A stretch of 64,000 nucleotides of DNA from contig CP030759.1 in the NCBI GenBank assembly GCA_003290465.1, positions 2,988,572 through 3,052,571 on the forward strand. The letters run 5' to 3'. Positions 30,770-41,954 of the stretch are shown here, piece by piece. The stretch's first letter is position 1. Each line of letters starts with the position of its first letter. Below the pieces are notes generated by a model, which searched no databases, was not told where the DNA came from, and saw only the letters and a program-made list of their open reading frames with translations. Position numbers and translations under genes: made by a program. Origin of the DNA: Candidatus Sumerlaea chitinivorans. Its GTDB lineage: Bacteria; Sumerlaeota; Sumerlaeia; Sumerlaeales; Sumerlaeaceae.

Positions 30770-30962
30770 GAGACTTGCCTCTCTGAGCAATGAGGCGAAG
30801 CGAAGTCCTTACGCAAGGAAGAAAGAGTCTAAGGCAAGACTATGCGAACCATTCCTTCGGGGCTGGAAAATTGCATAAGCTGCTTTGTGGGGGCAGCGAA
30901 GGCATTGTAGAAAATTCATAGCCCTTCCATCCCGAACTATGAGTCGAAGAAACACCAGAAAA

Positions 30963-30998
30963 TTCATGTTGCAGAAATATATTCGCTATAACGAATAT
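30963..30998 (+). promoter_or_regulatory. Probable ars promoter and ArsR operator
   Basis: ATATTCG (30979-30985) and CGAATAT (30992-30998) form a perfect seven-base inverted repeat with six-base spacer, and GAATATGC then recurs in tandem. A possible -35 TTCATG (30963-30968) and -10 TATAAC (30987-30992), 18 bases apart, place the -10 inside the palindrome, the usual position for ArsR repression. The palindrome is clear; the promoter hexamers are a weak match. Confidence 0.5.
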
Positions 30999-31004
30999 GC
31001 GAAT

Positions 31005-31418
31005 ATGCTTGAAGGCATGCAGAATCTCTTTGGCGCATTGAGCCATCCGACGCGCCTCCGCGTGCTGAACTTGCTGGCGCGGGGAGGACGGGAGTTCTGC
31101 GTATGCGAACTGGTCGAAATCTTGAAGGTTCCGCAAAGCACTCTATCGCGTCTACTCATGCCCTTACGCCAGAGTGGAATTGTTCAGGCTGAGCGCGCGG
31201 GTCAGTGGGTGCACTACAAGATCACGCCGCTCTATCGTTCGTATATTCGGATGCTCCTTGAGAAGTGTCCGACCGAGAAATTTCAGCTTGAATCGGATCT
31301 CGAGCGAGCAACTCGTTTGCAGGCGCGGAATCGCGCCGCTGCGTCGTACTGCACAGCGAAGCGTCGCCCGAGCAAGAAGCCCGTGCGTCAGCAGCGACAG
31401 AAGAGGTCAAACGTATGA
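31005..31418 (+). CDS. arsR: ArsR-family arsenical-responsive repressor
   Basis: Winged-helix dimer that releases the ars promoter on binding As(III). The core GALSHPTRLRVLNLLARGG is followed by EFCVCELVEIL, the CVC trivalent-arsenic site in the recognition-helix region, then VPQSTLSRLLMPLRQSGIV as the DNA-binding helix. The C terminus is a basic, disordered-looking tail. The start is uncertain: ATGs at 30966, 31005 and 31017 are in frame, but the operator overlaps the first, so I chose 31005. The stop overlaps arsC by four bases (ATGA), showing an operon with arsC and acr3. Confidence 0.9.
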   Translation: MLEGMQNLFGALSHPTRLRVLNLLARGGREFCVCELVEILKVPQSTLSRLLMPLRQSGIVQAERAGQWVHYKITPLYRSYIRMLLEKCPTEKFQLESDLERATRLQARNRAAASYCTAKRRPSKKPVRQQRQKRSNV

Positions 31419-31831
31419 TTCCCAGCCCCCAGAAACATCGAACGCGAATTCTATTCGTTTGCGTTGAAAACTCCAATCGTTCCCAGATGGCCGAGGCTTT
31501 TGCCCGCCATTATGGAGGGGATCAGGTGGAAGTCTTCAGTGCGGGGTCGCGTCCCTCCGGGCGGGTCAACCCGCGGGCGATCGAAGCGATGCGTGAGCGG
31601 GGAATTGAGCTTTCCGCGCATGTGTCCAAGTCCCTCCACGATGTTCCTCAGTGGGAATGGGACTATGTGATTACCATGGGCTGCGGCGATGAATGTCCGT
31701 GGGTAAAGGCCAAACACCGGGAGGATTGGAAGCTCCCTGACCCACGGGACCTTCCGGCTCAAGAGTTTGCGGTGGTGCGGGACGAAATCGAACGGCGGGT
31801 CCTCGAGCTCCTTCAAAGGATCAAACCCTAA
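31415..31831 (+). CDS. arsC: Arsenate reductase, thioredoxin-coupled (LMW phosphatase fold)
   Basis: Reduces arsenate to arsenite in the cytoplasm. The 138-residue protein starts with the P-loop [15 protein letters not shown], so Cys16 and Arg22 form the CX5R anion site. LPDP supplies the general acid aspartate (109). Cys90 and Cys94 (MGCGDECPW) fit the redox relay of the thioredoxin-linked class. Translation is coupled to arsR by an ATGA overlap, and acr3 follows 34 bases later. Confidence 0.93.
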
Positions 31832-31865
31832 TTTTAGTTCATCCCACTTTTCGGAGAAAAAGAAG

Positions 31866-32930
31866 ATGGCTACTTGTCGTGAAGCGAAGAAGTTATCGTT
31901 CTTGGACCGTTACCTCACGCTATGGATCTTTCTGGCGATGATTGCGGGAATCGTGTTGGGGTTGGTGGCACCGCAAGTATCTCACGCGATTACCCAGCTC
32001 AGCATCGGCACAACAAGCATTCCGATTGCGATTGGCCTGATTCTGATGATGTATCCGCCGCTCGCCAAAGTGCGCTATCACCAAATGGGCGACGTATTTC
32101 GGGATAAGAAAGTCGTTCTACTTGCCCTGTTCTTCAACTGGATTGTGGGTCCCGTGATCATGTTTGTCTTGGCGATCTTGTTCTTGCGGGATCGGCCCGA
32201 GTACATGACCGGTGTCATTCTGGTGGGGCTCGCGCGCTGTATCGCCATGGTTCTTGTATGGAACGACCTTGCTGGCGGTAACCGCGAATACATGGCGGGC
32301 CTTGTTGCGTTCAATGCTGTGTTTCAGGTCGTAACGTATTCCGTCTATGCTTGGTTCTTTCTGAGTTTCCTGTTGCCCCTCGTCGGCATGAAGGGAGTGG
32401 GGGTGGACGTCTCGATTTGGGAGATCGCCAAAAGTGTGTTAATCTACTTGGGAATTCCATTTTTCGCTGGTGTGCTCTCGCGTCTGATCCTGCCACGCCT
32501 CCAAGGCGAAGAGTGGTATGAGAAAGTTTTTATCCCGCGCATTAGCCCCATCACGCTTGTTGCGCTGCTGTTCACGATCGTCGTCATGTTCTCGCTCAAG
32601 GGCGACGTCATTGTGAGCCTGCCGCTCGATGTCCTCCGGGTAGCGATTCCGCTCGTTTGCTATTTCGTGATACTGTTTGTCTTGGCCTTCGTGATGGCGA
32701 AGCGAGCCGGGGCCGACTATTCGCGATGCGCGACGATTGCGTTTAGCTCCGCGAGCAATGACTTCGAACTTGCGATCGCCGTAGCGGTCGCCGTTTTCGG
32801 AATCACGTCTGGTCAAGCGTTCGCGACCGTGATAGGACCGCTCGTCGAAGTGCCGGTGCTCATTAGCCTTGTGAATCTTGCTCGATGGTGGCAAAAGCGC
32901 TGGTTCCCCGAAGAAGTTGCCGCAGAGTAG
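31866..32930 (+). CDS. acr3: Arsenite efflux permease, ACR3 family
   Basis: Exports As(III) produced by ArsC. The 354-residue protein has about ten membrane helices, and [19 protein letters not shown] contains Cys125, the membrane cysteine needed for transport in characterised ACR3 proteins. The ATG at 31866 has GGAG upstream; earlier in-frame codons overlap arsC. It ends a compact arsR-arsC-acr3 operon. No arsA or arsD is present, as expected for ACR3 systems. Confidence 0.95.
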
Positions 32931-33117: not shown

Positions 33118-35547
33118 ATGAAATCTTGCGCTTCCCATAATGCGGCGGGAGCGGCTGCCGCTCATGTTTCGACCAGTGTGGAGAGTCGTCGTCGGCGGGT
33201 CTTGCAATCGTTTTGGTGGTGGCTGCTGCGCCATTGGCCATGGCTTGCAGCCAACCCTGAGCGAGCTCGGTTTGTATACCGCCTTCATTATCGTCTGTTT
33301 CGAGAGTGGTACGAGGCCGGTAGGCCTTGCAATGTTGCGGAAGGCGCCGCCCAATCAGCGGACGTCGCTCCTGTCGCAGATGAGGCAATGCGCCAAGCGA
33401 TGCGGGCAGCCTTGCTGCAGACTTCCGATCCGCTTGATGCACGTGAGTTCAACGAGGCCATTGCCGCGGTAGAACGCGCGCGGGGTTTGGGCGCCTGTGC
33501 TGCTGTGCCCAGTGCATGGACGATTGAGGTGGGGCCGAACATGGCCCGATGGGAGTGGGCTGAACCTCTATGGCGCTTTGCCCGGCAGGTGCGAGTGGTC
33601 GCTCATGACGGTGCCAAAATTGCTCCCGCCTGTGATCTCTTGGAGGAACTCAGTCGGGCGATCACGGCAAGACTGATTTTACGCATGCCGTTGGAATGCG
33701 TAAGTGCTGAGGCATTGCGTCTTGCCGCGAAAGCCAACGTCGCAGCTCTCGAGTGTGTGATTGGAGCCGGTGCCATCGCTCAGCTCAAAGGTGCCGGCCG
33801 AGATGGCTGGCAAGAGACCTTGAAGCGGTTTCGGGCCGATGCAAAATCTGCGGTCCAGTTTGATGTGGAGTTGTCACGGAGATCTCTCGCAATTCTTAAG
33901 GAGGTCGGTGAATTTGCCAAGTCCGTAGGCGCGGAGAGAATCCATCTGCATTACGGCCGCGCAGCGCTTCCCGCGCAGGTCCCAGACTCCCTGTTTTTTG
34001 AGTCGGATTTTGGTCGCGCCGCGATTTCCCAGTTCTCGCAGCAGGCTCACACGTGGGGGATCGAGGTTGTCACACCGTTTGGGCCGCCAAGCCTCGAGCC
34101 ATACTCGGTTGTCCATCTTGACGCCGAGGGTATGGCATTCTCGTGCGGAGGATTCATCTGTTCCCATGGGGTCATCGGCTCCTTAGAAGAATTTCTTCAG
34201 TGGTGGGATTCTCCTGCTTGGTGCAAATTCCGCTATAGGGTCAGCAGAGGAGAGTTCGTACCGGAATGCCAGCTGTGTGGGGTAGTGGGAACCGCCGATA
34301 AGGAGAGCGTTCCGTATCATCTCACTGCGTACGACGGGGGCGAACCGTCGCAGGAATATCTCGACACGGTGCGGGTGGAGCTGGACCGCATTGGCGAGGA
34401 TCAATTGGCTCGAGATCGAAACGCACGCATCCGCCACTATGAGCACAGCCGCGGGTTCACGCGCCTCGCGTCGTATCCCCATCGGATGTACGTGGAAGTC
34501 ACTGACGAATGCAATCTGCGCTGCCCGATGTGCACCCAGACGATTCTTCAGGGAGAGCGTCGGCGAATCCCGCTCGAATTGGTCCGCAAGCTTACGCCTC
34601 TCATGCGCTATATGGATCTCATTCACTTCACAGGCTGTGGGGAGACGTTTTTGCATCCGCAGTTGCTCGACATGTTGCGGCTTGTGCCCCACCACCTATG
34701 CGCGGTCCGGATCATCACGAATGGCCTCTTGCTGGATGAGCACGTGTGCCGCGAGCTGATAAACTTACAACTCAAGGATTTGTGGGTCTCGCTTGATGGG
34801 ACAGACGCCGCGACGTTCGAAAAGATTCGCGGCTCGAAGCTTTTCCGCAAAGTTCTTGAGAATGTTCGAACGCTGACGCGGCTGAAGCACGAGCTCGGCA
34901 GCAACCGCCCGGAGGTCGCGCTGAATTTCGTGGCGCAACGCTCGAATATCGAGCAATTGCCTGACTTCATTCGCTTGGCAAAAGAGCTGGGGGCGGACGC
35001 CGTGAATGTGGGATTTTTGCAGGTCTACACCCGCAACCTGCTGACTGAAAGCCTCTATTTCTACCAAGATCTTGCGGACCACTTTTTGAAAGAAGCGCGC
35101 CGAGCAGCAGAAGAAGTTGGGATTCGCCTGTATTTGCCGGGGCTCTTCGCGGAGGCGCATGCGCGCAAAGCGAGCCTTACGGAATCCGGCGCCTCCGACG
35201 AGGCGAGTTCGCGCAAGTGCGTTGAACCTTATGGCTTTGTGCTCGTGCGTGCGGAAGGGCAGCTCGGGCCGTGTTGCGTCAATGACGCTCGCCTTGGCTC
35301 GCTGAGCGAGGCCAATTTTGTGGAACTCTGGAATGGGCCTGCCTACCGAGACTTCCGTCGCCGCGTCAGCACTCCCGAGCAGGATTTCGACTGTGAGCAC
35401 TGCATGCTGGAAGGCTATAAGGACATCACCGAATTTGAGCACCACGTGAAGCTCTTCGATGAACACTATCGCCCAGAACAAGTGGACTACCATCAGCTCG
35501 AGGCAGAGGTGCGGGCCAAGATTGCTGAAGGGGTTGTTGCCGGATGA
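33118..35547 (+). CDS. Tandem radical SAM/SPASM protein with a degenerate first module
   Basis: The 809-residue product contains two SPASM-type modules. Module 2 (about 450-775) is complete: CNLRCPMC gives the SAM cluster ligands Cys465, Cys469 and Cys472, and Cys701, 719, 720, 759 and 762 form the SPASM auxiliary-cluster region. Module 1 (about 135-390) has no CX3CX2C motif but ends in a SPASM-like region with Cys343, 348, 369, 384 and 387 that aligns with module 2: both show AEG, then Cys, GSL, an aromatic WDSPAW/WNGPAY and FRxRVS before a final CxxC. The first 70 residues are basic and tryptophan-rich. The stop overlaps the next start by ATGA. SPASM enzymes modify peptides or cofactors; no precursor peptide is visible here. 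The substrate is unknown. Confidence 0.85.
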   Translation: MKSCASHNAAGAAAAHVSTSVESRRRRVLQSFWWWLLRHWPWLAANPERARFVYRLHYRLFREWYEAGRPCNVAEGAAQSADVAPVADEAMRQAMRAALLQTSDPLDAREFNEAIAAVERARGLGACAAVPSAWTIEVGPNMARWEWAEPLWRFARQVRVVAHDGAKIAPACDLLEELSRAITARLILRMPLECVSAEALRLAAKANVAALECVIGAGAIAQLKGAGRDGWQETLKRFRADAKSAVQFDVELSRRSLAILKEVGEFAKSVGAERIHLHYGRAALPAQVPDSLFFESDFGRAAISQFSQQAHTWGIEVVTPFGPPSLEPYSVVHLDAEGMAFSCGGFICSHGVIGSLEEFLQWWDSPAWCKFRYRVSRGEFVPECQLCGVVGTADKESVPYHLTAYDGGEPSQEYLDTVRVELDRIGEDQLARDRNARIRHYEHSRGFTRLASYPHRMYVEVTDECNLRCPMCTQTILQGERRRIPLELVRKLTPLMRYMDLIHFTGCGETFLHPQLLDMLRLVPHHLCAVRIITNGLLLDEHVCRELINLQLKDLWVSLDGTDAATFEKIRGSKLFRKVLENVRTLTRLKHELGSNRPEVALNFVAQRSNIEQLPDFIRLAKELGADAVNVGFLQVYTRNLLTESLYFYQDLADHFLKEARRAAEEVGIRLYLPGLFAEAHARKASLTESGASDEASSRKCVEPYGFVLVRAEGQLGPCCVNDARLGSLSEANFVELWNGPAYRDFRRRVSTPEQDFDCEHCMLEGYKDITEFEHHVKLFDEHYRPEQVDYHQLEAEVRAKIAEGVVAG

Positions 35548-36521
35548 GACAACCCCGACGTCATTGGACACATAGGTTTTTTGGCCCGTTGTACGGCTAT
35601 CTTTATCAGTATCACTTATTGCCCGCCGACCAGACGCGTTGCGAAGTTCAATTTGCCAGCGCCCTTTGCGGACTCAAGCGCAAGTGTGTGTTGGATCTCG
35701 CTGCAGGGTTTGGACGCCACGCTCGGCTACTCGCGCGGTCGAATCAGGTTTGGGCGCTCGACCAAAACCGTGCCTACTTGGCGATGGCGCGCGAAAAGCT
35801 TTCTCCTCGGACTCTGAAAAATTTGCGTACCATCCAAGCAGATATGCGGGCGCTCCCTTTTCGGGATCAGGTGTTTGACGCAGTCCTTTTGCTTTTCAAC
35901 AGCTTTGGTTATTTTACCTCTGCACCTCCTCTCGAGCGGGAATTGCGTCAACGGGAGCTCTGGCGGCTTCCGGCGGTCTTTTACGAGCGGGGCCTCGTGC
36001 CAGAGGATTTTGGTGTGTGGCGCGAGGAAGGCGGTTCGACTCCGCCCCAGCAGAAGCGGGCAGAAGAGTCTGCGGGTGGGGTCGGCGCCGTCCTTCAGGG
36101 GCAAGGTGACGTAACTACGACGTCAACCACACAAGACGAGAATTTTCTCATCCTTGAAGAAGTTGCGCGCGTCTTGCGGTCAGAGGGAGACTTCCTTCTT
36201 GAGGTTCCCAACCCTCGTCCTCTATTGGCCGCGGTCGCGGAAGCACCTCGCCGGTGGTTGGTCACGAACGATTTTGAAATTGAGGAAGAATATACGTACG
36301 ACCGCACCCGCGCCTTGCTATCAAACGTCACGCGTTTCAGTGTGCCGGGGCGTACAGAGTGGGCGGACTACCACATCCGCTTATACTCCCGACGTGAGCT
36401 TGAGGTGGCCTTGCGCGGAGCTGGATTCAAAATCTGTGGGGTCTACGGCTCCTACGCCGGCGAGCGCTACGACGCTTCTCGCTCGCCGACGATCTTGCTC
36501 CACGCACGGCGCAAGCGTTGA
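35544..36521 (+). CDS. Class I SAM-dependent methyltransferase with a long insertion
   Basis: The 325-residue protein has motif I VLDLAAGFGRHARLLA (49-64), an acidic motif II in VWALDQNRAYL and FDAVLLLFNSFGYF (111-124) for motif IV. Between that strand and FLILEEVARVLRSEGDFLLE (201-220) sits an extra segment of about 70 residues rich in Glu, Arg, Thr and Gly and likely disordered. The closing half is beta-rich with YHIRLYSRRELEVALRGAGF. It is translationally coupled to the radical SAM gene (ATGA overlap), so the two probably act on the same substrate. The acceptor is not predictable. Confidence 0.87.
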   Translation: MRQPRRHWTHRFFGPLYGYLYQYHLLPADQTRCEVQFASALCGLKRKCVLDLAAGFGRHARLLARSNQVWALDQNRAYLAMAREKLSPRTLKNLRTIQADMRALPFRDQVFDAVLLLFNSFGYFTSAPPLERELRQRELWRLPAVFYERGLVPEDFGVWREEGGSTPPQQKRAEESAGGVGAVLQGQGDVTTTSTTQDENFLILEEVARVLRSEGDFLLEVPNPRPLLAAVAEAPRRWLVTNDFEIEEEYTYDRTRALLSNVTRFSVPGRTEWADYHIRLYSRRELEVALRGAGFKICGVYGSYAGERYDASRSPTILLHARRKR

Positions 36522-36572
36522 GAAATCACAATTGACGAGCATCGTTTACCCAAGCAGGAATGAGGGTTGCGT

Positions 36573-37529
36573 ATGTTGACTCTGGGAATAGATCTGGGTG
36601 GCACCGATACGAAGTACGGCCTTGTGGATTTTTCAGGGCGGATTGTGCGAGAGGCTGTACACCCCACCGAGGCACACCTTGGCTTTGAGAAGGTGATGGA
36701 GCTTGTTGCCATCCATGCCCGCGAGCTCATCGGCACGGAGAGGGTGACTGCGGTAGGCATGGGTGTGCCGGGCCCGATGAGCAGTCGCACGGGAGTGGTG
36801 TTCGAGGCTCCCAATTTGCCGGGGTGGAACCATGTGCCCGTGCGCGATGTCCTCGAGCGAGCCCTTGGTTTGCCGGTCGTCGTGCACAATGATGCGAATG
36901 CAGCTGCCTATGGGGAATTCTGGGCAGGTGCAGGCCGTGGATGCGAAAACATGATTCTTTTCTCCTTGGGAACGGGCGTGGGCGGCGGAATCATTTTGCG
37001 GGGCGAGCTCTACACCGGGCCCGACGACACCGCGGGCGAACTGGGGCACATGTGCATCAACTTTGAAGGCCCGCCCTGCAATTGTGGGAGCCGGGGTTGT
37101 TTGGAAGCCTACGCAAGCGCGACTGCGATTCGGCGCGTCGTGCGTGAAGCCATTGCGAGCGGGCGGTTGACGCGGATCCGGATCCCCGAAGGCAAGGAGA
37201 ATTCATTCGGCGCGAAAATTGTCTACGAGGCGGCACTTGAGGGAGATCCCCTCGCGATCGAGGTGCTTCAAAATGTTGGAATCGCCTTGGGGATTGCCGC
37301 TGGAAGTATCATCAACATCTTTAACCCTGAGCGAATTGTCTATAGCGGGGCGCTGACGGGGGCCGGCGAGTTTATTTTTGGTCCGCTTCGCAAATATGCG
37401 ACCTCCCACGCGTTTCGGCGACCTGCAGAGCGCGTTGAGATTTTGGTCGCTAAATTGGGTTCAAAGGCCGGCATGGTTGGTGCCGCAGGATTAGCCATGA
37501 AAACGCGACGCGAAGCGAACAATCCTTGA
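36573..37529 (+). CDS. ROK-family sugar kinase (glucokinase-like)
   Basis: The 318-residue product has the ATP motif LGIDLGGTDTKYG at its start, GVPGPMSSRTG and the ROK zinc motif CNCGSRGCLEAYAS. HNDANAAAYGEFWAGAGRG contains the catalytic aspartate. Zinc-binding ROK kinases phosphorylate glucose, fructose, N-acetylglucosamine or N-acetylmannosamine. The ATG at 36573 has GAGGG six bases upstream, and a TTG at 36567 is possible. It follows the methyltransferase by 51 bases in the same direction. No helix-turn-helix is present, so it is an enzyme rather than a ROK repressor. Confidence 0.92.
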   Translation: MLTLGIDLGGTDTKYGLVDFSGRIVREAVHPTEAHLGFEKVMELVAIHARELIGTERVTAVGMGVPGPMSSRTGVVFEAPNLPGWNHVPVRDVLERALGLPVVVHNDANAAAYGEFWAGAGRGCENMILFSLGTGVGGGIILRGELYTGPDDTAGELGHMCINFEGPPCNCGSRGCLEAYASATAIRRVVREAIASGRLTRIRIPEGKENSFGAKIVYEAALEGDPLAIEVLQNVGIALGIAAGSIINIFNPERIVYSGALTGAGEFIFGPLRKYATSHAFRRPAERVEILVAKLGSKAGMVGAAGLAMKTRREANNP

Positions 37530-37638: not shown

Positions 37639-39279
37639 ATGAGCCATAGGCCACCACTGCGATTCAAAATTGCGACTGAGCCAGAAGAATTTGAGCAGAT
37701 TCATCGGCTCAACTATCGAACTTTTGTCGAGGAGATCCCCCAACACCGCCCGAATGAGGACGGTCGGCTCGTCGATCGTTTCCATGAGGAGAACACCTAC
37801 ATTATCTGTCTGTGCGGGACTCGAGTTGTTGGCATGCTCGCGGTGAGAGACCGCCGTCCCTTCTCATTGGACCTAAAATTGCCGAATCTCGACTCCTATC
37901 TGCCGCCGGCGAAGTCCATTTGCGAGATTCGCTTATTGGCCGTGGAACCTGAGTTCCGAAGTGGGCAGGTGTTTCGCGGGCTTGCCGTAGAATTGGCGCG
38001 CTACGCTTTGAGCAAAGGCTACGACTTAGGAATCATTTCCGGAACCACGCGCCAGCTCAAACTTTACCGCCATGTTGGCTTCATTCCGTTTGGGCCCCTT
38101 GTGGGGGAACCCGGGGCACAGTTTCAGCCGATGTACATGACGCGAAAGGAGTTTGAGCGGATTACTTTGGAAGTGTTGGGTAAGGAAGAGATTTTGAGTG
38201 CGGCACGCCACAATGGCCACGTTGCAAACTTTTTGCCGGGTCCTGTGAACATTCGGGAAGAAGTGCGCGAGGCGTTTTCTGAGCCCCCGGTCTCGCATCG
38301 GGGCGAAGCGTTCATCGAAGAGTTTCAAGAGCTTAAGGCGCAGCTTTGCCGCATCGTCAATGCCCGAAATGTCGAGATTTTTGTTGGTTCCGGAACTCTG
38401 GCGAACGACGTCATTGGTGCCCAACTGACGCTGCTGGATAAGCCGGGGCTGATCCTTGCGAACGGTGAGTTTGGATTTCGGTTAGCCGATGCCGCCAAAC
38501 GGTTTAGGCTGAATTTTAAGGTTTTTGAAGCCCCTTATGGCCAACCGTTTGATTATCGCGAACTTGAGAAAGAAGTGGAGGCGCGAGCCTCTGAGCTTGG
38601 GTGGTTGTGGGGCGTGCACTGCGAGACATCGACAGGCGTGCTCAATGATTTGGGGCGACTGAAGCGGCTCGGAGCCCACCACGGACTGAAACTTTGTATG
38701 GATTGCATTTCCTCGATCGGGGTGGTGCCTGTGGATGTGGAAGGGCTCTATCTGGCCTCGGGAGTCAGTGGCAAGGGATTGGGATCCTACCCGGGCCTAT
38801 CCATGGTCTTCTACAATCATGAAGTTCAGCCGGCCCATCAGTTGCCGCGGTATTTGGATCTCGGCTACTATGCCGCCAAGGACGGAATTCCGTTCACGCA
38901 TTCCTCAAACTTAGTGCGGGCGCTCCGTGCGGCGCTTCACCATTTTGAGAGCAATCCGCCTTATGAAAAGCGCGCGAGTTTATCCGCATGGGCGCGAGAG
39001 CGGCTTCGCCAAATGGGCTTTCAGGTTCTGGCGTCGGAAGAGTGCGCGGCGCCTGCAGTCATCACCATCGTTTTGCCTCCGGCGATTCGATCTTATGATG
39101 TCGGGAGCCAGCTTGAGCGCGCGGGGTTCCTCGTAAGCTACATGAGCGAGTACCTGCTGGCTCGTAACTGGATCCAAATTTGCATGATGGGCGAGTGCAC
39201 AAAAGAGAACCTCGAAGCGCTGCTGGACCGTATTGCACTCGAGTGCGGTGTCGCGGAGGCGCATTCACCTGTCGTGTAA
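37639..39279 (+). CDS. GNAT-like N-acyltransferase fused to a class V aminotransferase
   Basis: The 546-residue product has two enzymes. Residues 1-175 are GNAT-like; ICEIRLLAVEPEFR (94-107) and the lead-in FEQIHRLNYRTFVEEIPQH resemble the FeeM/LuxI-type N-acyl synthases more than ordinary GNATs. From about 195 a PLP-dependent class V aminotransferase follows: LPGPVNI, HCETSTG (328-334), Asp355 in CMDCISSIG and the likely PLP lysine Lys379 in SGVSGKGLGS. Its closest relatives appear to be alanine-glyoxylate or 2-aminoethylphosphonate aminotransferases. One polypeptide could transaminate and then acylate an amino product. GAAGG precedes the ATG. No acyl-carrier protein is nearby. Domains firm, product unknown. 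Confidence 0.85.
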   Translation: MSHRPPLRFKIATEPEEFEQIHRLNYRTFVEEIPQHRPNEDGRLVDRFHEENTYIICLCGTRVVGMLAVRDRRPFSLDLKLPNLDSYLPPAKSICEIRLLAVEPEFRSGQVFRGLAVELARYALSKGYDLGIISGTTRQLKLYRHVGFIPFGPLVGEPGAQFQPMYMTRKEFERITLEVLGKEEILSAARHNGHVANFLPGPVNIREEVREAFSEPPVSHRGEAFIEEFQELKAQLCRIVNARNVEIFVGSGTLANDVIGAQLTLLDKPGLILANGEFGFRLADAAKRFRLNFKVFEAPYGQPFDYRELEKEVEARASELGWLWGVHCETSTGVLNDLGRLKRLGAHHGLKLCMDCISSIGVVPVDVEGLYLASGVSGKGLGSYPGLSMVFYNHEVQPAHQLPRYLDLGYYAAKDGIPFTHSSNLVRALRAALHHFESNPPYEKRASLSAWARERLRQMGFQVLASEECAAPAVITIVLPPAIRSYDVGSQLERAGFLVSYMSEYLLARNWIQICMMGECTKENLEALLDRIALECGVAEAHSPVV

Positions 39280-39505
39280 TTCGGCCGAATACTTGCGGCG
39301 CGAACATACTCGTTGTGACGGTGGGTACCCCTCACTTTTTAAGGCTCCGACGGAGGCCCGAGGGGTGTTTTCTGCATGTCCTTGTTTATTTCATTTTGGC
39401 TGGCTGTCGGTTCCAGTTGCAAATGCTGCGTGCACCCGGTGCTCTTCCTGCCAATAAGCGAGAGGAAGCAAACCCTTCTGAATCTGCGTGAGGAGTAGGC
39501 AGAAA

Positions 39506-41347
39506 GTGGAAACACGGCTCTACAAAGACGGACTCGGACCCAATGTCCGAATTGGGATTTTGCAACACCAGCCCAAGATTCGACTCAGCTTGCGCGGCAA
39601 GTACCGCATTGTGACCAGTCGTGGTGGCGAGCTTCCGGCAGACATCGACCAAGCGACTGATTTTGTGTTTGAAGTGGCTAGCGCACAACCGGCCGAGCTC
39701 GCATGGCGGCTTGTCCTGCGTAAGTCGCCACGCCGCGAAGATGCCGAGTCGGCGCCATGCCCCAATGCCCAGCTGGAACCGCTGGAAACGCTTCAACTTG
39801 GTTACGAGTTCGCGAAGGGCGTATCGAGCGTAGAGTATTGGCGGTGTTCGCGACGTTTTGGGAGCGAACGCGAAGCCGCTGAGGTTCTTGCGCGTTTGCC
39901 TCACCCCGAACGAATTGCACTGATGACAGAGCGAGTGGCACCTCCTCAAGGAACCATCCGGGTTCAGGCGGGTGAGGCCGCCTGCGAAGTGGGCGAGTGG
40001 ATTCGCTTCGAACCACGTGAACCCGAGTCCGACCGAGCCGTAATCCATGACGTCATCGTGGGGGTAAGCTTCCACTGGAAACACTATGAGCGCCAACGAT
40101 TCCGCGGGACGGTAGAAATTCGGGTCGACAATCGGGGGCAACTGACGGCGATCAATGAGCTTCCTGCCGAAGCCTACCTCTTCTCGGTGAATTCCTCCGA
40201 GATGATGTCCGTGATGCCGGAGGAGCTTCTGAAGGCGCAGACCGTGGCAGCGCGCAATACGCTCTTCGCGACCATGGGCAAGCATCATTACGCGGACCCA
40301 TTCGACCTGTGTGCGGATGATCATTGCCAGTGCTATCGCGGTTCGTCGCGCGAGACTGCCGACTCGCGTCGCGTGACACTCGCCACACTTGGCGAAGTGC
40401 TGGTGCACGACGGGTCCGTATGCGACTGCCGATATTCGAAGATGTGCGGCGGGATTATCGAAAGTTTCGACAGCGTTTGGAATGAAGATCCGCGCGGCTA
40501 CCTTATTGCAAAAACCGACGCTGATCCCGGGTCCGACGTAGAGCAGTTCTTCCCAGCGAATACGGAAGAGCGTGCCGCGGCTCTGATCGCTGCCAAACCC
40601 GACGTCTGGTGTAATACCACGGGCGAGGACGTTCCGCCTTATCTGCGCTACTCTGCCCCTTACTTCCGCTGGGAAACCCGCCTCGAACGCCGGGAGCTCG
40701 AAGCCCATCTCTCGAAATACCTTGGCGAAGAAATAGGCGAACTGGTGGCGCTCGAGCCAATCTCGCGCGGTGCTTCTGGTCGAATTGAGTATTTGCGTGT
40801 CCGAACAAAGAAGGGCGAATGGGTGATCGGGACGGTAGCCAAACAGTACTCCATCCGCGAAGCCCTGAGCCCAGCGTTTCTCTATAGCTCAGCTTTTGTG
40901 GTCGACTATGAACGCACAGCCGATGGGGAGATTGCAGCGGTGATCCTCCGCGGTGCGGGCTGGGGACACGGCGCTGGCATGTGTCAGGTGGGCGCCACCA
41001 TGATGGCGTACAAAGGCCGCACCTATCGGCAGATTTTGGATCACTACTACCCGAACTCGCAGATTGTGCGTCTCGCGCCAGCGGGAGCCGAAGAGTCGCT
41101 GGCTCACCTTGTGCCGCGCGAAGAGTCGCGCGCAGGCGAGCGCTGTTTCGAGTTCTACAACTGCTATGCGGTCGCGACGTGTCCGGTTTACCTGCAGCAA
41201 ATCGAGCTTCAGGCGGAACCCGTTGCAGAAGGCGCGCAGTGGCGCTTCGTGCAGCCTGCCGATGTCAAACAGCAGAACCTCGCAGCTCTGAATATCACGT
41301 GTGAGTTTTTGGAATTTGACGGGACGGAAGCACGTCCAAAGGTGTAA
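39506..41347 (+). CDS. SpoIID/LytB-domain protein
   Basis: The 613-residue product carries a SpoIID amidase-enhancer domain from about 200 to 540: VNSSEMMSVMPEELLKAQ and VAARNTLFATMGKHH match the conserved start, YRQILDHYYPNSQIVRL the end, and GRGAGWGHGAGMCQVGATMM-like sequence the conserved core. In Bacillus SpoIID is a lytic transglycosylase that cuts peptidoglycan glycans during engulfment; homologues are widespread in non-sporulators. No signal peptide is evident with either GTG start (39488 or 39506), so export is unclear. I chose 39506 because GAGGAG lies ten bases upstream. Confidence 0.88.
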   Translation: METRLYKDGLGPNVRIGILQHQPKIRLSLRGKYRIVTSRGGELPADIDQATDFVFEVASAQPAELAWRLVLRKSPRREDAESAPCPNAQLEPLETLQLGYEFAKGVSSVEYWRCSRRFGSEREAAEVLARLPHPERIALMTERVAPPQGTIRVQAGEAACEVGEWIRFEPREPESDRAVIHDVIVGVSFHWKHYERQRFRGTVEIRVDNRGQLTAINELPAEAYLFSVNSSEMMSVMPEELLKAQTVAARNTLFATMGKHHYADPFDLCADDHCQCYRGSSRETADSRRVTLATLGEVLVHDGSVCDCRYSKMCGGIIESFDSVWNEDPRGYLIAKTDADPGSDVEQFFPANTEERAAALIAAKPDVWCNTTGEDVPPYLRYSAPYFRWETRLERRELEAHLSKYLGEEIGELVALEPISRGASGRIEYLRVRTKKGEWVIGTVAKQYSIREALSPAFLYSSAFVVDYERTADGEIAAVILRGAGWGHGAGMCQVGATMMAYKGRTYRQILDHYYPNSQIVRLAPAGAEESLAHLVPREESRAGERCFEFYNCYAVATCPVYLQQIELQAEPVAEGAQWRFVQPADVKQQNLAALNITCEFLEFDGTEARPKV

Positions 41348-41360
41348 GCATCAGGACATG

Positions 41361-41954
41361 ATGATTGAAATTCCCGCCGACGTCCGAGGACTGATCTTCG
41401 ATTGCGACGGCACGATTGCAGATACGATGCCTCTCCACTATCAGGCTTGGTTGGAGGTGCTGGGCGATGACGCGGATAAGTTCCCCGAAGCCCTTTTCTA
41501 TGAGCTGGCCGGCATGCCGACCGCGGACATCATTCGCGTGCTGAACGAGCGGCACGGTTGCCATCTCCCCGTCGCGGAAACACGCCAGCGGAAATCCGAA
41601 GCGTTTTATCGCCGACTTCATGAAGTTCGTCCCATTGAGCCCGTCGTTTCGCTCATTCGCGAGTGTAAGGGCAAGTACCCTCTGGCCGTGGCGACGAGCG
41701 GCACCCGGCTATCGTGTACGCGAACGCTCGAGGCGTTAGGGCTTGCGGACTGTTTTCAAGCGGTCGTGACCGTGGATGATGTGCCTCGCGGCAAGCCAGA
41801 ACCGGATCTTTTCCTTGAAGCGGCGCGGCGAATTGGCGTTCCGCCCGAGCACTGCATGGCATTTGAAGATGGTGATCTCGGGCTCGAAGCCGCTCGCCGG
41901 GCCGGGATGCGGGCCGTGGATATTCGCCCACTGCGGCAAGCGTCAGGACACTGA
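41361..41954 (+). CDS. HAD-superfamily phosphatase (beta-phosphoglucomutase-like)
   Basis: The 197-residue protein opens with IFDCDGTIADTMPLHYQAW, the DxD nucleophile pair of subfamily I with a cap domain. VATSGTRLS is motif II, GKPEPDLFLEAARR motif III and AFEDGDLGLEAARRAGM motif IV. It resembles YqaB/beta-PGM-type sugar-phosphate phosphatases. It follows the SpoIID gene by only a few bases and may be translated from the same message. ATG codons at 41358 and 41361 are both possible. Confidence 0.88.
   Translation: MIEIPADVRGLIFDCDGTIADTMPLHYQAWLEVLGDDADKFPEALFYELAGMPTADIIRVLNERHGCHLPVAETRQRKSEAFYRRLHEVRPIEPVVSLIRECKGKYPLAVATSGTRLSCTRTLEALGLADCFQAVVTVDDVPRGKPEPDLFLEAARRIGVPPEHCMAFEDGDLGLEAARRAGMRAVDIRPLRQASGH

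Follow-up and report, generated by a model that had tools for sequence, protein, structure and literature searches.

The N-acyl serinol synthase of Cohen et al. 2017 reportedly has two domains, an N-acyl synthase and an aminotransferase. Such synthases are reported from Firmicutes including a Bacillus, and their product is the amide of a three-carbon amine that carries no carboxylate. N-palmitoyl serinol is made by E. coli with the hm-NAS genes of Desulfitobacterium hafniense and Bacillus sp. 2_A_57_CT2 (PMC9605164, accessible text), and a review also names Gemella (PMC11271093). N-acyl serinols act on mammalian GPR119, according to the portions available of two papers (PMC12594153, PMC11271093).

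A second described system is RtxA, a bifunctional enzyme of rhizobitoxine synthesis whose aminotransferase domain converts dihydroxyacetone phosphate (DHAP) to serinol phosphate (PMC3222319, available text). Going by this description, the N-terminal domain of RtxA is a DHAP aminotransferase within a bifunctional enzyme, as we propose below for the protein studied here, but its partner domain is sulfhydrylase-like. Class V aminotransferases with an N-terminal enzyme domain are also found in the PntC-AEPT fusion (PDB 6pd1) and in the Mycoplasma penetrans MetRS (PDB 9os7); these N-terminal domains are nucleotidyltransferase-like (for 9os7, PMC13215547, text available), while the protein studied here has a GNAT domain. 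In the literature that we searched, which took in few subscription papers and many others only in part, we found no N-acyl serinol or FeeM-type synthase tied to PlsY, and no description of the fusion reported here.

An acyltransferase-aminotransferase fusion

The window, by which we mean the whole stretch of 64,000 nucleotides that was analysed, comes from the Candidatus Sumerlaea chitinivorans genome, all 3.29 Mb of which lie on one contig. It contains the following fusion gene, with its domains and two residues of interest:

37639-39279, + strand: FeeM-type N-acyltransferase and class V PLP aminotransferase fusion gene, 546 aa (translation, Pfam, family alignment, predicted model)
37639-38187, + strand: N-terminal FeeM-type GNAT domain, residues 1-183 (PF21926, fold matches, invariant columns)
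38230-39243, + strand: class V aminotransferase domain, residues about 198-535 (PF00266, TIGR03301, fold)
38773-38775, + strand: Lys379, predicted PLP-binding lysine (K in 50/50 fusions and 33/33 unfused homologues)
39175-39177, + strand: Gln513, replacing the Arg of ordinary class V aminotransferases (Q in 50/50 fusions, R in 33/33 unfused homologues)

The frame is free of stops over its 546 residues, and the ATG at 37639 is preceded by a purine-rich sequence resembling a ribosome site and is the start position shared by the fusions of close relatives. In the predicted structure of the full fusion (mean pLDDT 93.1) there are two folded domains, and the single poorly modelled stretch, residues 184-193, is the linker between them. 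A sequencing join can be ruled out as the origin of the fusion because full-length relatives are present in many genomes and the two-domain model is confident. An earlier note, made from the letters of the window, had read the gene as one polypeptide combining a GNAT with a class V aminotransferase, with an HCETSTG motif and a likely PLP lysine at position 379. This reading is borne out, since both Pfam domains score above their cut-offs in the one open frame, the motif lies at residues 327-333, and Lys379 falls in the catalytic lysine column of the family alignment. To it we add the change from Arg to Gln at position 513 and a PlsY partner in relatives.

The best Pfam model for the N-terminal domain of the window's protein is FeeM (PF21926, residues 20-161, 39.5 bits against a cut-off of 27). 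It is thus FeeM, and not an unrelated GNAT family, that scores best over the region of residues 1-175 which the earlier note had called FeeM/LuxI-like. Acetyltransf_5 (PF13444) reaches 30.5 bits (cut-off 22.4), and this FeeM-type model is presumably the one that defines the hm-NAS acyltransferase set, so that the above-threshold match counts the domain as NAS-type. Residues E96, R98, R107, D46 and R70 are invariant in all 50 fusions of the family alignment. At E up to 1, the FeeM model and the general model Acetyltransf_1 each match 12/12 sequences in the GNAT alignment, and in a distant Bacilli-type relative (L145) FeeM is above its cut-off at 31.0 bits, yet general GNAT models score higher. 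The LuxI half of the description survives as a likeness of fold only, for the LuxI family model PF00765 has no match to the window's domain at E up to 1; in 4 of 12 relatives it gives weak matches (best E 0.0042).

Modelled alone, the GNAT domain has a pLDDT of 90.1. Its model matches the acyl-homoserine-lactone (AHL) synthase BjaI with Z 18.8 over 176 residues (rmsd 2.8), FeeM (PDB 2g0b) with Z 17.7 over 166 residues (rmsd 2.9) and LasI with Z 17.6 over 173 residues (rmsd 3.0). The ordinary GNAT SACOL1063 reaches Z 18.1 over only 142 residues, and we counted matches at most one Z unit apart as ties, so that FeeM is tied with AHL synthases and with this GNAT. The predicted model therefore appears closest over its full length to AHL synthases and FeeM, with SACOL1063 tying in Z. 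By sequence, the best PDB relative is again the autoinducer synthase BjaI (5w8c/5w8a, E 0.0004). AHL synthases (BjaI, LasI, TofI) thus share the fold but differ in the PF00765 match that the window's domain lacks at E up to 1. FeeM, an N-acyl tyrosine synthase that acylates tyrosine, shares both fold and best Pfam family; it is a single domain, whereas the fusion brings its own aminotransferase.

The C-terminal domain matches Aminotran_5 (PF00266) at residues 218-496 with 26.6 bits (cut-off 21.5). Among NCBIfam models the best is TIGR03301 (PhnW-AepZ) at 145.8 bits, which is under its equivalog cut-off of 360.8, and the domain misses every other NCBIfam equivalog cut-off as well. Class V structures of the AGT/PhnW type match it at Z of about 38-44 (VIA-align); serine-pyruvate and alanine-glyoxylate aminotransferases belong to the nearest solved folds, and PhnW also ranks with the top matches. 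The 9os7 entry was considered as a solved relative of the entire fusion and rejected, as its sequence match is limited to the aminotransferase and its N-terminal domain is of another kind.

We compared the residues of 50 fusions with those of 33 class V homologues lacking a GNAT, both gathered by searches. Lys379, Asp355, Glu329, Thr330 and Ser331 are identical in all 50 fusions, and Asp355, like Lys379, is also present in all 33 unfused homologues. Fold and PLP residues are thus common to the fusion domain and to the PhnW/AepZ and AGT/SPT aminotransferases, but these carry an invariant Arg where the fusion has Gln513. The Arg is found in five alignments to solved class V enzymes too, including PhnW (1m32). 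We take this residue to be the Arg by which alanine-glyoxylate aminotransferase binds the carboxylate of its substrate, with a counterpart Arg in PhnW. Because it is Gln in every fusion, the fusion aminotransferase appears to be no ordinary keto-acid transaminase. The lost Arg would normally also hold the carboxylate of the amino donor, and donor binding without it is a difficulty common to every version of the chemistry proposed below. Further fusion-specific positions, counted against 32 of the 33 homologues (the weakest, L003, was omitted), are N256, W322, G378, P403 and S503, and G378 adjoins the PLP lysine.

Distribution of the fusion

The fusion is a real and widespread bifunctional enzyme whose range extends far outside Sumerlaeota. 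Besides that phylum, full-length relatives occur in Verrucomicrobiota, Planctomycetota, Bacillota and one betaproteobacterial bin. Of the relatives with names, those nearest to the window's protein come from Candidatus Sumerlaeota bins and are 73-75% identical to it. Loci with names come from Sumerlaeota, Verrucomicrobia, Pontiellaceae, Planctomycetota, the betaproteobacterial bin and Cytobacillus spongiae (Bacillaceae). A first search of relatives found the full-length fusion in 5/61 genomes, all in the window's class, and a wider one in 7/386, the same five together with G234 and G339. In the phylum to which the verrucomicrobial genome G065 belongs, 19/387 genomes have it, with three extra GNAT-only matches. 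Searching with a lipoteichoic-acid synthase led us to a Bacilli-type class in which 50 genomes matched and 48/398 carry the full-length fusion, the other two matches being partial. We infer that this class is Bacilli from four LtaS-like genes in genome G096.

Alongside the fusions there are five GNAT-only and three aminotransferase-only loci. Among relatives the fusion holds together, as the reading in the earlier note requires, apart from the five GNAT-only loci, which are scattered in the GNAT tree. We dropped repeated loss of the fusion as a claim, since the number of label changes in that tree is no lower than with shuffled labels and many branches are weak.

The presence of the fusion in Cytobacillus is compatible with Bacillus as a source of N-acyl serinol synthases. 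To judge from the published descriptions, the fusion and these synthases are probably the same kind of enzyme. The available text on the published enzymes mentions neither a PlsY partner nor a range that takes in Sumerlaeota, Verrucomicrobiota and Planctomycetota.

Genes around the fusion in the window

The fusion is flanked in the window by five genes on the same strand, each of which we regard as a neighbour at the family level:

33118-35547, + strand: radical SAM/SPASM protein (PF04055, PF13186; also in L041)
35544-36521, + strand: class I methyltransferase (PF13649; also in L041)
36567-37529, + strand: ROK family sugar kinase (PF00480; adjoins the fusion in L004 and L041 too)
39488-41347, + strand: SpoIID/LytB-domain protein (TIGR02669, 156.6 bits, cut-off 83.3; also in L004 and L041)
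41301-41954, + strand: HAD phosphatase (PF13419; also in L041)

A genome of the same family, G001, has the radical SAM, methyltransferase, ROK, SpoIID and HAD genes in the same order, at 46, 50, 74, 75 and 72% identity respectively. Neither G016 nor G022, which belong to the same class, has the block next to its fusion, and in other phyla we did not find these genes together as a set near the fusion. The run of radical SAM, methyltransferase and ROK genes had been suggested as a biosynthetic locus. That suggestion finds no support beyond the family, and we set these neighbours aside as candidates for the pathway; they form a block kept at the family level and not a conserved partner set. The HAD phosphatase could have a dephosphorylating role.

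Some features of these genes are worth recording in their own right. The SpoIID/LytB-domain gene lies directly 3' of the fusion and is kept there in two relatives; we know of no spore formation in Sumerlaeota. In the 809-residue radical SAM protein (33118-35547), Radical_SAM and SPASM match the second half only, and the first half, whose tail is Cys-rich and SPASM-like, may be a degenerate second copy. Further upstream, at 30885-32930, an ArsR-type regulator, a low-molecular-weight phosphatase/ArsC-type protein and an ACR3 arsenite transporter stand in a row as an arsenic resistance operon.

A PlsY paralogue beside the fusion

PlsY moves an acyl group from acyl-phosphate onto glycerol 3-phosphate. 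Of the 78 fusion loci that we found, we studied the gene neighbourhood of 50 (21/48 Bacilli-type, 16/17 of the further loci from the verrucomicrobial phylum, and all others). In 33 of the 50, the gene immediately upstream, on the same strand, is of the PlsY type. PlsY is missing from this position in all five GNAT-only and all three aminotransferase-only loci. The distance between PlsY and fusion varies from -345 to +74 bases, and over-long ORF starts are the source of the strongly negative figures; with starts trimmed by homology, the two genes abut, slightly overlap or sit within tens of bases of each other. The PlsY of L007 was detected by profile search, and the flanks of L007, L008 and L042 (an E1-type dehydrogenase, a sulfatase, DUF4401, a peptidase and an aldolase-family epimerase) have no shared theme.

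The 17 loci without an adjacent PlsY are five from Sumerlaeota including the window, the betaproteobacterial bin, L151 (at a contig end), those of G339, G609, G601 and G898, and six Bacilli-type loci. Most genomes that carry the PlsY-fusion pair have two or three PlsY genes. A single PlsY was found in G000, G001, G016, G022, G339, G064, G609, G771, G420 and G601, and in G420 this sole copy is the one in the operon; the incomplete genome G007 had none detected. No second PlsY was found in the window's genome or in three of its four fusion-bearing class-mates, and the lone PlsY of each of these scores like a housekeeping copy. The PlsY argument therefore derives from phyla other than Sumerlaeota. 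A partner PlsY is also missing for G898, G339, G609, G601 and the betaproteobacterial bin.

As a housekeeping set we took the best-scoring 30 PlsY loci returned from the same set of genomes. A single branch separates the 33 operon PlsYs from these 30 (support 99/95, and present in 99% of 200 bootstrap trees). In a tree with 20 extra PlsY copies, seven unlinked PlsYs fall inside the operon clade with support of 98/92 for that part; the larger operon group joins more weakly (92/91), and three f280 rows and L201 stand apart on weak branches. The L201 sequence, the second PlsY of G898, is a fragment of 57 residues, and its position in the tree is meaningless.

The seven unlinked copies account for all seven tested Bacilli-type genomes without adjacency (G1137, G1084, G1066, G889, G986, G922 and G878), each of which has an operon-clade PlsY elsewhere. 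In these genomes adjacency has been lost and the PlsY partner kept. A DegV-family gene (Pfam DegV) adjoins the unlinked PlsY in all seven, compared with 1 of the 30 housekeeping loci, for which only short flanks were covered. DegV proteins act as FakB subunits, which bind fatty acids and take part in making acyl-phosphate, the donor used by PlsY. At L217-L222, DegV/FakB, DUF2804 and an M20 peptidase form a conserved block with the unlinked operon-clade PlsY.

Four operon-type PlsYs, including the unlinked L217, score 118.8-138.8 bits with PF02660 (cut-off 24.1), and all three operon PlsYs that were run against the NCBIfam PlsY equivalog TIGR00023 fall below its cut-off (122.0, 101.1 and 95.5 against 137.2 bits). 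The G-S-G, D-x-x-K and G-H motifs are mostly kept. A Thr of the first motif, present in 30/30 housekeeping PlsYs, is Arg or Lys in 26/33 operon PlsYs, and an invariant Gly is Phe in 32/33. These replacements and the sub-threshold TIGR00023 scores fit a changed acceptor, which the operon PlsYs may thus have. Bacilli-type genomes also contain a third PlsY-like clade, which has GASN in place of the GATN motif and no link to the fusion (L198, L200, L202, L205, L207, L209, L211-L215).

Proposed chemistry and alternatives

The conserved PlsY partner ties the fusion to glycerolipid assembly. A second PlsY linked to an aminotransferase and an N-acyltransferase suggests a nitrogen analogue of glycerol phosphate, namely serinol phosphate made from DHAP, a reaction for which the aminotransferase domain of RtxA offers a precedent. 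We consider it somewhat better than an even bet that the fusion works as a bifunctional synthase of N-acyl amines, of the N-acyl serinol (phosphate) type, with substrates, product and order of steps as follows. The class V PLP domain would aminate a small carbonyl other than a keto acid, in all likelihood DHAP (or dihydroxyacetone). The resulting serinol phosphate (or serinol) is glycerol 3-phosphate's 2-amino analogue. The FeeM-type GNAT, as expected from its family, would then put a long acyl chain, probably from acyl-ACP, on the amine. In most relatives outside Sumerlaeota, the dedicated PlsY paralogue would O-acylate this product with acyl-phosphate, yielding an amide analogue of phosphatidic acid. 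Because no second PlsY was found in the window's genome, the end product there is probably N-acyl serinol (phosphate), or the housekeeping PlsY may complete it. The direct route of transamination and acylation that the earlier note thought conceivable stands in outline, given the FeeM-type GNAT and intact PLP residues, but its substrates and product are our proposals.

The FeeM match could be taken at face value, with the fusion as an N-acyl amino acid synthase that makes its own amino acid: hydroxypyruvate or pyruvate would give serine or alanine, and the GNAT would acylate it as FeeM does tyrosine. Serine-pyruvate and alanine-glyoxylate aminotransferases are indeed among the nearest folds, but the Arg with which such enzymes hold their substrate is Gln in 50/50 fusions and the dedicated PlsY paralogue is left unexplained, so we regard this as unlikely. 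The same substitution weighs against an N-acyl aminophosphonate synthase, in which phosphonoacetaldehyde would give 2-aminoethylphosphonate and the GNAT would acylate it to a phosphonolipid, since the PhnW Arg too aligns with Gln513. Such an enzyme would suit the best NCBIfam model and the PhnW fold matches; the TIGR03301 score is, however, far under the cut-off, and PEP mutase, which forms the C-P bond, is above its cut-off in just 1/52 fusion genomes, the one in which a phosphonate amine might still be made. We therefore hold the aminophosphonate route to be very improbable.

An amine without a carboxylate, on the other hand, suits the change to Gln, and glycolaldehyde phosphate or a similar two-carbon aldehyde might be aminated to phosphoethanolamine and then N-acylated, which also agrees with the lipid context given by PlsY. 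Phosphoethanolamine has no free hydroxyl, though, and PlsY acylates a hydroxyl of the three-carbon glycerol phosphate, which leaves a product of the N-acyl ethanolamine type with a slim chance. We give about as little credence to an amine of another kind, or a PLP reaction that is no transamination, both domains working on one intermediate. The fusion-specific N256, W322, G378, P403 and S503 allow for chemistry different from that of known class V enzymes, but every PLP-handling residue that we checked is ordinary.

Returning to the N-acyl serinol type of synthase, a larger and more tentative proposal, which we think may well be wrong, is a so far unrecognised membrane-lipid pathway in many Bacilli and Verrucomicrobiota, with the fusion and its dedicated PlsY as the committed steps. 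DHAP would be converted to serinol phosphate, N-acylation by the GNAT would replace PlsC, and O-acylation by the PlsY paralogue would replace the housekeeping PlsY. The end product, 1-O-acyl-2-N-acyl-serinol phosphate, would resemble ceramide and be an amide counterpart of phosphatidic acid. Given the PlsY partner, the prediction is of phospholipids with one ester oxygen replaced by NH, that is with a mass shift of about -0.984 Da and one extra nitrogen, from a two-gene operon that many Bacilli-type genomes possess and that also occurs in little-studied phyla. This would, if true, add a lipid class and explain an orphan PlsY paralogue, and the N-acyl serinols that commensals are reported to make would be intermediates that have lost their phosphate, or else products of breakdown.

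Other genes near fusions

A gene of the LTA-synthase type lies directly downstream of the fusion in five Bacilli-type loci, L045 (16605-18458), L128, L129, L131 and L133, and perhaps its product uses the lipid; those of L045 and L128 are under the NF053595 cut-off. The loci L129, L140 and L141 have a common gene cluster 5' of the fusion, one member of which in L141 is an FAD-dependent oxidoreductase resembling glycine oxidase (ThiO). In seven loci a FAD_binding_4 protein is encoded upstream of the PlsY-fusion pair, for example at L147:8972-11128 on the - strand (718 residues).
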